A stretch of DNA of 64,000 nucleotides from Wenjunlia tyrosinilytica (GTDB lineage: Bacteria; Actinomycetota; Actinomycetes; Streptomycetales; Streptomycetaceae). The position numbers were made by a program, and so were the translations under genes. Below, in pieces: positions 36,209 through 40,921 of the stretch (the stretch's first letter is position 1; each line of letters starts with the position of its first letter). The DNA lies in the NCBI RefSeq assembly GCF_014646055.1, contig NZ_BMMS01000004.1, forward strand, positions 1-64,000, given 5' to 3'. A model generated the notes under the pieces. The model was not told the DNA's origin. It did no database searches and was given only the letters and a program-made list of their open reading frames with translations.

Positions 36209-36793
36209 CTACGAGGGGCGCGCAGGCAGCGGCAGGGGCAGTGCCGGAAGGCCGTCGAGGCTGGTGCCGACATGGGGCTTCTGCTCGCAGTAGTCGGCGA
36301 ACCCCTCCTCGCCCTTGCGGGCGAAGTGCTCGCGGTGCAGGGTGCGTTCCTCGCGGAAGTCCATGAACGGCACGGCGTAGCCGCAGGTGTCGCTGATCCG
36401 CAGGGCGGACACGACGATGACCGCGCGCAGGTCACTGGCGTCGGCGGCCTCCCCGAAGCGGGCGGCGAGCTCGGGGAAGCGCGGGTCGTCGCGGAAGACG
36501 GGCTCGCCCCGCCCATGGACCCGCACGATCTTCGGCGGGCCGGTGAAGGCGCACCACATCAGTGTGACGCGGCCGTTCTCCCTGAGGTGGGCGATGGTCT
36601 CGGCTCCGCTGCCGCCGAAGTCGAGGTAGCCGACCTGGAGTTCGTCGAGGACCAGGAACGAGCCGGAGCGGCCCTTCGGAGAGACGTTGACATGGCCGTC
36701 GGCGGCGAGGGGCGCGGTCGCCACGAAGAAGACGGGCTGTTCCTCGATGAAGGTGCGCAGACGGCCGTCCATGCGGTCGTAGAGCTTTCCCAT
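36209..36793 (-). CDS. Pyridoxamine 5'-phosphate oxidase-family flavin-binding protein
   Basis: This 194-aa protein has the PPOX split-barrel pattern: FVATAPLAADGHVNVSPKGR, then YLDFGGSGAETIAHLRENGRVTLMWCAF and VRVHGRGEP. This subgroup binds FMN, F420 or heme rather than acting in B6 synthesis. ATG 36793 starts the conserved domain. It lies between the O-methyltransferase and the flavoprotein genes, suggesting a redox operon. Confidence 0.85.
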   Translation of the reverse strand: MGKLYDRMDGRLRTFIEEQPVFFVATAPLAADGHVNVSPKGRSGSFLVLDELQVGYLDFGGSGAETIAHLRENGRVTLMWCAFTGPPKIVRVHGRGEPVFRDDPRFPELAARFGEAADASDLRAVIVVSALRISDTCGYAVPFMDFREERTLHREHFARKGEEGFADYCEQKPHVGTSLDGLPALPLPLPARPS

Positions 36794-36897: not shown

Positions 36898-37566
36898 TCA
36901 GCCGGTGACGAGGGCGAGCGCGAAGCCGTCCCAGCCCTTGGCGCCCACGGTCTGGATCGCGGTCGCGGTGACGCGGGGCTCCTCGGCGAGCAGCTCGGTG
37001 AAGCGGCGCACGCCCCGGACCCCGGGGTCGGCGCTGTCCGCGTCGGTGACCCGGCCGTCGCGGACGACGTTGTCGCCGATGATGAGGCTGCCGGGGCGGG
37101 TGAGCTCCAGCGCCCACTTCAGATACTCGGGGTTGCTGGGCTTGTCCGCGTCGATGAAGACCAGGTCGAAGGGGCCGTGGCCCTCGGCGGCCAGCCGCGG
37201 CAGGGTGTCCAGGGCGGGTCCCTCGCGGACCTCGGCCCGGTGGGAGAGCCCCGCGCGGGCGAGGTTGCCGCGGGCGACTTCCGCGCGGCGCTGGTCGGCC
37301 TCCAGCGTGATGAGGCGGCCGTCCTCGGGCAGCGCCCGGGCGAGCCAGATGGTGCTGTAGCCGCCGAGGGTGCCGATCTCCAGGACCGTGGCGGCGCCCT
37401 GGATACGGGCCAGGAGGTGGAGGAGCTTGCCCTGGTTGGGGGCGACACCGTGGGGCGGGAGCCCGGCCCGGTCACTGCTCTCCAGCGCCGCGTCGAGCTC
37501 GGGGTCCGACGGCACCAGCAGGGCATTGAAGTACTCGTCGACCTCGGTCCATTTGTCGATGTTCAC
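36898..37566 (-). CDS. O-methyltransferase family 3 (catechol/caffeoyl-CoA type)
   Basis: This 222-aa SAM-dependent enzyme has the family motif VLEIGTLGGYSTIWLARALP, the acidic LITLEAD, the metal-binding DLVFIDADKPSN and IIGDNVVRDG. Members methylate catechol-like hydroxyls with a divalent metal. GTG 37566 is set by AGGAGG upstream. It is divergent from the HxlR-peroxiredoxin gene, whose operator-like palindromes lie 40-60 bp upstream of this start. Confidence 0.9.
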   Translation of the reverse strand: MNIDKWTEVDEYFNALLVPSDPELDAALESSDRAGLPPHGVAPNQGKLLHLLARIQGAATVLEIGTLGGYSTIWLARALPEDGRLITLEADQRRAEVARGNLARAGLSHRAEVREGPALDTLPRLAAEGHGPFDLVFIDADKPSNPEYLKWALELTRPGSLIIGDNVVRDGRVTDADSADPGVRGVRRFTELLAEEPRVTATAIQTVGAKGWDGFALALVTG

Positions 37567-37605
37567 GCCGTTCGGCCTCCTGAACCTCTTCTCGGAGCCG
37601 GAGAG

Positions 37606-37629
37606 TTCCCATAGGGAACTTACTATGGG
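37606..37629. promoter_or_regulatory. Nested palindromes, candidate HxlR operator
   Basis: TTCCCATAGGGAA at 37606-37618 is a perfect inverted repeat, and CCCATAG (37608-37614) pairs with CTATGGG (37623-37629) as a second, wider one. The second overlaps the ATG of the HxlR-fusion gene. Binding there would block both that gene and the divergent O-methyltransferase promoter, so autorepression is likely. Confidence 0.7.
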
Positions 37630-38575
37630 CACCATGGACACGCATCCCCGTTCCAGGAGTCGCAACGTCGACGAGGAGTGCGGTATCGCCCAGGCGGCGG
37701 CCGTGCTCGGCGACTGGTGGAACCTCCTCGTGCTGCGCGAGGTCGCCCGAGGCCATGTGCGCTTCGATGTGCTCGCCTCCGAGCTGTCCGTCTCCCGCAA
37801 GGTGCTCAATGAACGGCTCCGGCACCTGGTCGAGCAGGAGGTGCTGTGGCGGAGCCGCTACCTGGACCGACCACCGCGGTATGAGTATCTGCTGACCGGA
37901 CGGGGCAAGGCGCTCCTGCACGTGCTGGTCGCCATGCAGGACTGGGCCGACCGCTGGCTGCTCGGTGACGGGACACTGACCGCGACGGCCGACGGCGAAA
38001 GCGGCGAGGCGGCGCGGGTGCGGGCGCTGGTCGGCACGGCGGTCCCCGGAGACCTGTGGCTGACGGACATGCGGGGCGGGGAACGGGATGTGGTCGCCCC
38101 AGGCGCCACCGCGACCGTTCTGTTCACCTTTCCGGCCACGGGGATCACCCTCGATGTGCCCGGCGCGGCGGGCTGCACACTGGAGAACCGGCTGTTCAGA
38201 GATGCCTGGCCGACGTTCGAACGGGTGGGCGCGGCCGTGGTCGGGGTTAGCACCCAGGAGCCCGCCGAGCAGGCCGCGTTCGCCGCCGCCGAGTGCGTTC
38301 CCTTCCCCCTGCTGTCCGACGAGCACCTGCGGCTGGCCGCCGCGCTGCGCCTGCCGACGTTCCGGGCGGGACAGCGGTTCCGGCTGAAGCGGCTGGTCCT
38401 CGTGATCGATTCCGAGCGGGTGGTGCGGCGGGCGCTCTACCCCGTGATGGACATTCCGTCGGCCGTGGACGAGGCACTGCGGACGGCGGTGGAGCTGGGC
38501 GGCAAGCCGGGCGCGAGGCCGGGTGGGAAGCCGGATGGGAGGCCGAAAGGAAGGACGGCAACGAGGCCGGGGTGA
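37625..38575 (+). CDS. HxlR-type regulator fused to a peroxiredoxin-like domain
   Basis: This 316-aa protein combines an N-terminal HxlR winged helix (about residues 12-110; EECGIAQAAAVLGDWWNLLVLREVARG carries the usual sensor Cys) with a C-terminal AhpC/TSA-type domain (about 135-290). The peroxidatic Cys is present in AAGCTLENRLFRD, but the Thr normally three residues before it is Ala. The last 25 residues are basic repeats of GGKP/GRPK type. AGGGAAC precedes ATG 37625. It looks like a redox sensor whose ligand domain is a modified peroxiredoxin. Confidence 0.85.
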   Translation: MGTMDTHPRSRSRNVDEECGIAQAAAVLGDWWNLLVLREVARGHVRFDVLASELSVSRKVLNERLRHLVEQEVLWRSRYLDRPPRYEYLLTGRGKALLHVLVAMQDWADRWLLGDGTLTATADGESGEAARVRALVGTAVPGDLWLTDMRGGERDVVAPGATATVLFTFPATGITLDVPGAAGCTLENRLFRDAWPTFERVGAAVVGVSTQEPAEQAAFAAAECVPFPLLSDEHLRLAAALRLPTFRAGQRFRLKRLVLVIDSERVVRRALYPVMDIPSAVDEALRTAVELGGKPGARPGGKPDGRPKGRTATRPG

Positions 38576-39538: not shown

Positions 39539-40921
39539 ATGACGGACATCGCCATCACCGCGCTCGCCCACCGCGACCTCGACTTCAACTCCCCTCTCTC
39601 GGACGTCCGGGCCGTGGGACTCATCCACTCGCTGCGTCCCTTGGCCGGTGCCCGGATCCTGGATCTGGGCTGCGGCTGGGCGGAGTTGCTGCTGCGGCTG
39701 CTCGAGGCGGAGCCGACCGCGACGGGCGTCGGAGTGGACACCCATGAGGCCGCGCTGGAGCGGGGGCGGGCCAACGCGGCCGCACGAGGGCTCTCCGACC
39801 GTGTCCGCCTGGAGGCCGCCGACGCGGTCGCCACGGCGGCGAACGGGACCGGTGGCCCCGTGGACGTGGTCACGGCCATCGGCGTCACCCACGCCTGGGG
39901 CGGCGCCCGTCACACCCTTGAGGCGGTGCGTCCCCTGCTGCGGCCGGGCGGGCGGTTCCTGTTCGGGGAGGGCTTCTGGGAGCGGCCCCCGACCGCGCGG
40001 GCGTCGGCGGGGCTGAAGGCGCGGCCGGAGGACTTCCTGTCGCTGAGCGAGCTGGTGGACCTGGCCATCGGCTGCGGCTACCGGCCGCTGGCGGTGTCCG
40101 TGGCCAACGCCGACGAGTGGGACTCCTTCGAGTCCCGGTGGTGCGGCGGGCTGGAGCGGTGGCTGCTGGAGCATCCCGCGGACCCCGCGGCCGGGAAGGT
40201 GCGGGCAGTCGCCGACGAGCACCGCGACGGCTGGCTCGGTGGATACCGGGGCGTGCTCGGATTCGCCTACCTCACCCTGGCCGCATCCACGGCGCCCTCC
40301 GCCCCGTCCCGCTGGGTCCACCGCGGCTCCACCTCGGGAAGGGCCCTCGGGGCGGGCAACGAGGCGTCCGATTCCCGCCGGTCATGGACGGCGGACGCCC
40401 CCGACGATGGGGGCATGGAGACCGCGTACGAGATCCGGGCCATCGGGCCCGAGGCGCTCGAGCAACTGAGGGTGCGGGACGACGCCGGGCGGGTGCCCCG
40501 GCCGGTGCGGGACGACGAGGGCGGCAGCCCGTTGCGCTGCTGTCTGAAGCGGAGCCTGCCCGGTGAGGCGATCCTGCCGGTCGCCTACGCTCCCCTGCGG
40601 CGGTGGGCGGCGGCCACGGGCGCCGACCCTGGGCCGTACGAGGAGGTCGGGCCGGTGTTCATCCACCCGGGCCCGTGCTCGGGGCCCGACGGGGACGGGG
40701 TGCCCGAGCAGATCCGCGGGGAGCGTCGGGTGTGCCGGGCCTACACCGCCGACGGCCGGATCAAGGAAGGCGTACTGGTCGACCCGGGCCACCCCGAGGC
40801 GGCCGGCTCGATCGAGGAGGCGCTCGCCGAGCTGTTCGCGAGCCCGGACACCGCGCTGGCGCATGTGAGGGCCGTGGAGTTCGGCTGCTTCACCTACGAG
40901 GCGCGCCGCCGCGAGGGCTGA
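39539..40921 (+). CDS. SAM-dependent methyltransferase fused in frame to a DUF1203 domain
   Basis: One uninterrupted frame of 460 codons holds two normally separate proteins. Residues 1-245 are a class I methyltransferase (ILDLGCGWAELLLRLLEAEP, GVGVDTHEAAL, VDVVTAIGVTHAW). After a polar linker of about 45 residues comes a complete DUF1203 domain (about 293-460, starting ETAYEIRAIGPEALEQL). The start may be ATG 39539 or an in-frame ATG at 39503. An internal ATG at 40415 could begin the DUF1203 part separately but has only a weak G-rich site. Both functions are unknown. Confidence 0.75.
   Translation: MTDIAITALAHRDLDFNSPLSDVRAVGLIHSLRPLAGARILDLGCGWAELLLRLLEAEPTATGVGVDTHEAALERGRANAAARGLSDRVRLEAADAVATAANGTGGPVDVVTAIGVTHAWGGARHTLEAVRPLLRPGGRFLFGEGFWERPPTARASAGLKARPEDFLSLSELVDLAIGCGYRPLAVSVANADEWDSFESRWCGGLERWLLEHPADPAAGKVRAVADEHRDGWLGGYRGVLGFAYLTLAASTAPSAPSRWVHRGSTSGRALGAGNEASDSRRSWTADAPDDGGMETAYEIRAIGPEALEQLRVRDDAGRVPRPVRDDEGGSPLRCCLKRSLPGEAILPVAYAPLRRWAAATGADPGPYEEVGPVFIHPGPCSGPDGDGVPEQIRGERRVCRAYTADGRIKEGVLVDPGHPEAAGSIEEALAELFASPDTALAHVRAVEFGCFTYEARRREG

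Follow-up and report, generated by a model that had tools for sequence, protein, structure and literature searches.

Fusion of an HxlR-type regulator to a PrxQ-like peroxiredoxin in actinomycetes: a family with a conserved operator and a putative role as redox-sensing repressors

The 64,000-nt stretch of the Wenjunlia tyrosinilytica genome analyzed here (contig NZ_BMMS01000004.1, positions 1 to 64,000; hereafter the window) encodes a protein in which an HxlR regulator and a PrxQ/BCP-type peroxiredoxin are genuinely fused in one chain. Both domains were already known; it is their combination into one regulator that is new, and a search of the open-access literature, which did not cover subscription papers, returned no account of an HxlR-peroxiredoxin fusion or of its operator. 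We lean modestly toward the view that the protein is an autoregulated local repressor whose 1-Cys peroxiredoxin domain would sense oxidants and derepress a detoxification gene. If this is true, actinomycetes have a regulator family in which a peroxiredoxin housed within a repressor has been turned from an enzyme into a sensor, and both the operator and the class of targets (exporters and an O-methyltransferase) of this family are defined.

The fusion gene is on the forward strand and its start is most likely the ATG at 37634 (37634..38575, 313 aa), based on sequence features described below; the alternative upstream ATG at 37625 would give a protein of 316 aa. The first-pass annotation had the end of this ORF, 38575, correct, while the beginning it gave, 37606, most likely gives way to 37634. 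Profile searches of the ORF identified HxlR (Pfam PF01638) at residues 27–112 of P0001 (E 2.5e-20; 72.6 bits against a curated cut-off of 20.8) and, in the same ORF, AhpC-TSA (PF00578) at residues 182–269 of P0001 (E 7.8e-12; 45.7 bits against a curated cut-off of 26), scores which place the protein in both families; PF08534 was also matched (28.6 bits). The AlphaFold model, for which the input was a 39-sequence alignment (A1), has two well-folded domains (mean pLDDT 86.7, pTM 0.80) and, together with the presence of PF01638 and PF00578 in one ORF, confirms the earlier proposal that an HxlR protein is joined to an AhpC/TSA-type domain. There are three cysteines in the 313-aa protein, at positions 16, 181, and 221. 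We rejected as vanishingly improbable the explanation that the fusion and its palindrome are an annotation accident, that is, a frame fusion next to a chance palindrome. The sole points found in its favor are the high GC content and the long overlapping ORFs, and against these stand the homologous fusions at 75 first-round loci (window included) in several actinomycete families, the conservation of the operator across loci, and the single confident model.

Of the 75 first-round loci, 70 were parsed and aligned, and 17 more were fetched later. The counts based on 70 rows leave out L014 and L017 (start not located, although the tblastn text still shows both Cys), L087 and L088 (partial or frameshifted matches), and L093 (contig end). 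L004 is a duplicate of the window, and as the 70 loci include many close relatives all counts refer to loci and not to independent events. Sixteen loci beyond the window's own (L007–L022) were found among 60 relatives of its genome, and another 58 come from named genomes: Streptomyces, Kitasatospora, Asanoa, Nonomuraea, Phytohabitans, Hamadaea, Sphaerisporangium, and a single [Actinomadura]. At E 1e-60, full matches were present in 20 of 394 genomes representing an even draw of the class and in three of 396 drawn from the phylum; the distribution of the fusion in actinomycetes is therefore wide but patchy. Several Nonomuraea members (L091, L092, L062, L070, and L072) are longer than the others, at 346–399 aa, owing to extra sequence intervening between the helix-turn-helix (HTH) and peroxiredoxin domains.

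The HxlR winged-helix domain comprises about residues 14–110 (37673..37963, forward strand). The predicted HTH fold of this N-terminal part is of the HxlR type, based on its sequence matches to HxlR-type structures (4gcv, 2f2e, YodB, and HxlR); our structural comparison covered mainly residues 128–297, so that the assignment rests on these sequence matches. Cys16 (codon 37679–37681), a sensing-type Cys of HxlR proteins, is invariant in the 70 fusions and corresponds by alignment to the sensing Cys in the HxlR structures 7bze and 7bzd. The same Cys is present in 12 of 12 HxlR-only proteins, and its conservation is therefore not specific to the fusion. In YodB and QsrR, the Cys forms a quinone or electrophile adduct. 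According to PMC7835342, the partner of the aligned Cys in HxlR is a Lys located two residues further on. This position is Ile in 67 of the 70 fusions (I18 in the window), Val in the other three, and Lys in none, and formaldehyde-type sensing by a Cys-x-Lys bridge was therefore excluded.

These observations bear on the possibility, in our estimation quite unlikely, that Cys16 is the sole sensor, via a quinone or electrophile adduct, and that the peroxiredoxin domain serves as a small peroxidase that protects or recycles it. Cys16 is invariant, it aligns with the HxlR sensing Cys, a residue whose conservation and reactivity in the MarR/DUF24 family are noted in PMC7835342, and the action of an O-methyltransferase on catechols would presumably suit quinone stress. 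However, Cys16 is likewise found in all 12 HxlR-only paralogs, an aldehyde-type Cys-Lys bridge is excluded by the Ile or Val at +2, and an enzymatic role ill suits an attached peroxiredoxin whose resolving Cys was lost repeatedly.

The peroxiredoxin domain comprises about residues 128–291 (38015..38506, forward strand). Its closest fold is that of Mycobacterium tuberculosis BcpB (5epf; Z 20.3, rmsd 2.2, 153 residues, 31% identity), which was also the first sequence match to structures for the C-terminal part (E 1.7e-11), and the 1-Cys peroxiredoxin AhpE is among the nearest folds (Z 18.9). The peroxidatic Cys, C181 (codon 38174–38176), is invariant in the 70 fusions, as are E184 and the active-site Arg, R253; Cys16 and Cys181 are the only invariant cysteines in the family. 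The resolving position, C+5 (residue 186), is occupied by Arg in the window, which has no resolving Cys. The residues found there are R (65), A (2), C (2), and S (1) in the 70 fusions and R (8), C (6), L (2), and T (1) in the 17 further ones, such that a resolving Cys is kept in eight of 87 fusions versus 15 of 17 distinct standalone relatives, the two remaining relatives being L136 (R) and L103 (L, with a Cys at +4).

In a tree of 76 peroxiredoxin domains, a 100/100 branch divides the standalone from the fused rows, and the fused domains are one clade with a single origin. Inside this clade, at least four changes are required for the label "fused with resolving Cys". The simplest story would be that a 2-Cys PrxQ-like domain was fused once and that its resolving Cys then disappeared several times, with the peroxidatic Cys never lost. 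The members that retain the resolving Cys (L021, L022, L117, L119, L120, L121, L123, and L127) look like natural intermediates between enzyme and sensor.

The first-pass annotation had correctly noted a peroxidatic Cys with Ala in place of Thr at position −3 and had treated the Ala as a special trait. This second point did not hold up. Position −3 is variable in the 70 fusions (A 35, T 18, G 9, and S 8) and is Ala in 17 of 17 distinct standalone relatives; the Ala is therefore a family habit and no mark of the fusion. The stronger oddity, overlooked in the first-pass annotation, is that the resolving Cys has been lost, with R in its place at C+5. The Thr or Ser typical of peroxiredoxins at −3 is present in 26 of the 70 fusions and absent in 44 (A 35, G 9), so that neither the window nor most of the family has the typical site, and a long insertion splits the PxxxTxxC motif. 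Given these two features, the peroxide reactivity of the fused domain may be weak. However, an Ala at −3 need not abolish reactivity, since the T44A variant of yeast Tsa1, according to PMC5024103, was only slightly less active with H2O2 and fourfold less active with cumene hydroperoxide.

The loss of the catalytic Thr/Ser is also relevant to a rival explanation that we consider fairly unlikely, in which the peroxiredoxin domain would be a redox-silent ligand-binding or dimerization module and the regulator would bind a toxic small molecule, namely a substrate of the exporter or O-methyltransferase, as in many efflux repressors. The active-site loop is extended, and the part before C181 varies in length and is modeled with low confidence (pLDDT 64 at residues 171–180), all of which would be compatible with such a module, as would the finding that the divergent partners at 63 of the 70 loci are exporters or O-methyltransferases and not antioxidant enzymes. 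On the other hand, the invariance of C181, E184, and R253 would be needless for a mere scaffold. A built-in redox sensor, as we prefer, would fit a domain in which the peroxidatic Cys and the Arg are invariant and the resolving Cys has been lost several times.

The proposed operator is a 25-bp dyad, GGAGAGTTCC-CATAG-GGAACTTACT (37600..37624), with a perfect 7-3-7 palindrome at 37604–37620 as its core, located between the fusion gene and a divergent O-methyltransferase gene. It agrees with the consensus AGTnAGTTCC-N5-GGAACTnACT at 16 of 19 positions. This consensus was drawn by eye from the 70 loci and then scored, over 19 fixed positions and with a threshold of 14, on those same loci, where 63 of the 70 upstream regions reached at least 14 versus two of 1259 control windows cut from those loci. 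The 17 later loci were not used for the consensus and represent an independent test; 15 of them reached 14 versus none of 577 controls, with L128, which has no alignable N-terminal Cys region, scored as a miss. The same fusion and operator, which the first-pass annotation had suggested be sought elsewhere, were thus both found. Of the two overlapping operator palindromes it described, the core above is conserved, whereas the second (arms 37605–37614 and 37623–37632) looks coincidental, since it depends on the spacer CATAG, which, of 70 sites aligned, is seen in the window alone.

At 54 of the 70 loci there is a second operator 21–24 or 31–33 bp away, corresponding to two or three helical turns; the window, unlike most of its relatives, has a single operator. 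Weaker similar sites occur at HxlR-only paralogs (best score of 14, in one of 12), and the motif is therefore probably a specialized form of a broader HxlR operator. The conservation of a palindromic operator also provides indirect support for dimeric DNA binding by the HxlR part. The operator core without mismatch occurs at one site in the 8.49-Mb genome. Allowing one mismatch gave 14 forward sites (the exact one included) versus 10 for the reversed control, and hence no clear enrichment that would indicate a wider regulon.

The sequence TACTAT (37621..37626, forward strand) is the probable −10 box of the fusion gene. It overlaps the operator and is situated 7 nt before the ATG at 37634, which suggests that the mRNA is probably leaderless and disfavors the ATG at 37625, as the latter would fall inside the box itself. 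TACTAT touches the operator nearest the fusion gene in 14 of 14 O-methyltransferase-type loci; a consensus promoter scan detected no sigma-70-type pair and no −35 match for the fusion gene. The position of the operator is pertinent to whether the fusion protein might instead be an activator of the divergent gene, which we think unlikely. HxlR itself is an activator; the Bacillus subtilis protein acquires DNA binding in response to formaldehyde and activates (PMC7835342), and in other clades the operators are 60–190 nt upstream of the fusion gene. Nevertheless, the operator in the window and in O-methyltransferase-type loci lies directly against the −10 box of the fusion gene or overlaps it, an arrangement that suits repression of that promoter.

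The probable target in the window is the divergent gene for a SAM-dependent O-methyltransferase (36898..37566, reverse strand; GTG start with AGGAGG upstream; PF01596, E 3.3e-42), which is nearest to bacterial O-methyltransferases of solved structure (8c9s, E 2.8e-90). The O-methyltransferase is the conserved divergent partner in the clade nearest the window, occurring at 14 of the 70 loci (15 with L088), while an MFS transporter is found at 26 and an ABC-2 permease at 23. The divergent MFS and ABC-2 genes were assigned by tblastn, and the transporter families were determined for five representatives. None of these three gene types is divergent at L008, L011, L042, L054, L055, L062, or L071. 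In the clade with the resolving Cys (L117, L119, L120, L123, and L127), the upstream translations resemble, by eye, another MFS transporter.

In the repressor model we favor, the HxlR winged helix, presumably as a dimer, would bind the 25-bp dyad over its own −10 region, and operator occupancy would span the space before the divergent target, the O-methyltransferase here and an MFS or ABC-2 exporter in other clades. The peroxiredoxin domain would derive, by a single recruitment, from a standalone PrxQ-like family of actinobacteria and, having kept the peroxidatic Cys and the catalytic Arg without a resolving Cys, would act as a 1-Cys sensor and not as a turnover enzyme. Peroxides or redox-active aromatic compounds would oxidize C181 to a sulfenic acid, which would then be trapped as a mixed disulfide, the partner thiol being either mycothiol or the HTH-domain Cys16. 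The mixed disulfide would distort the dimer and release the operator, leading to induction of both the detoxifying gene and the regulator, and O-methylation of catechol-type compounds, or export, would remove the stress compound. The analysis establishes the domain architecture, its conservation, the single origin of the fused peroxiredoxin, its loss of the resolving Cys, the conserved operator, and the divergent partners, while the sign of regulation (repression as opposed to activation), the redox step, the composition of the mixed disulfide, and the inducer are the parts of this model that we infer. An actinomycete precedent is M. tuberculosis AhpE, a 1-Cys peroxiredoxin reported in PMC4360819 to be reduced via mycothiol/mycoredoxin, and this type of reduction serves as our model for the switch of the fusion protein. 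AhpE is similar in fold and likewise without a resolving Cys, but is an enzyme without a DNA-binding domain, and its loss of the resolving Cys presumably was separate from that of the fusion.

More tentatively, the two invariant cysteines could constitute a relay within one chain, a somewhat unlikely scheme in which Cys181, oxidized by peroxide or by redox-cycling natural products, would hand the oxidation to Cys16 of its own or the partner subunit, so that the sensing Cys of a transcription factor would have taken over from the lost resolving Cys. In yeast, the peroxidase Orp1 passes oxidation from its Cys to a Cys of the transcription factor Yap1. That relay involves two proteins, whereas in the fusion, if a relay exists, it would take place in one polypeptide. 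It would then be a natural example of peroxidase-to-regulator signaling in a single protein, distributed widely in actinomycetes and coupled to genes for drug exporters and an O-methyltransferase.

Other known systems resemble the fusion in one half or the other. HxlR, YodB, HypR/YybR, and QsrR share the winged helix with an N-terminal sensing Cys and gave significant sequence matches; however, their solved chains are single-domain proteins of about 110–131 residues, to which the fusion adds a peroxiredoxin, and the aldehyde-partner Lys of HxlR is replaced by Ile or Val. PrxQ/BCP proteins such as BcpB have the same fold, the peroxidatic Cys with CTxE, and the Arg, and relative to them the fusion has lost the resolving Cys, replaced the Thr, gained the Pro-Cys insertion, and acquired a DNA-binding domain. 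If the favored reading holds, the fusion family makes it possible to ask directly whether a bacterial transcription factor can incorporate peroxiredoxin-based sensing and whether redox-active antibiotics or quinones are the signals, and the operator consensus, together with the intermediates that keep the resolving Cys, offers a ready comparative series.

The first-pass annotation had also placed two further neighbors under the control of the fusion protein, and of its proposed targets only the O-methyltransferase is supported here. The genes for a PPOX/PNPOx-type flavoprotein (36209..36793, reverse strand) and a Flavoprotein-family protein (PF02441; 35575..36132, reverse strand) have no conserved association with the fusion; a match to either was found at none of the 13 O-methyltransferase-type loci whose flanking sequence on the PPOX side is at least 5 kb long, a count that leaves out L046 because of its short flank, and we rejected a conserved regulon containing them. 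Control of these genes is also not supported by the genome scan, which found no second exact operator. Similarly, the DUF1330 gene behind the O-methyltransferase is not conserved with the fusion. A hint to the contrary is that, by eye, one other direct adjacency of a PPOX-type flavoprotein gene, the sole one seen, is at L011 (1196–1834), where it overlaps the fusion stop codon. A small SMR-like multidrug transporter gene is convergent behind the fusion gene at L008 and L119, with traces at L116, L118, L120, and L121 (also by eye), in a clade related to the resolving-Cys members. At the Nonomuraea loci L062 (4326–5921) and L071 (3676–5259), which do not have the usual divergent transporter, inspection by eye found that the gene immediately upstream of the fusion gene resembles an FAD-dependent monooxygenase. 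Lastly, the window contains another putative fusion, an ORF at 39539–40921 (forward strand) that joins a SAM methyltransferase (Methyltransf_12/25) with DUF1203.
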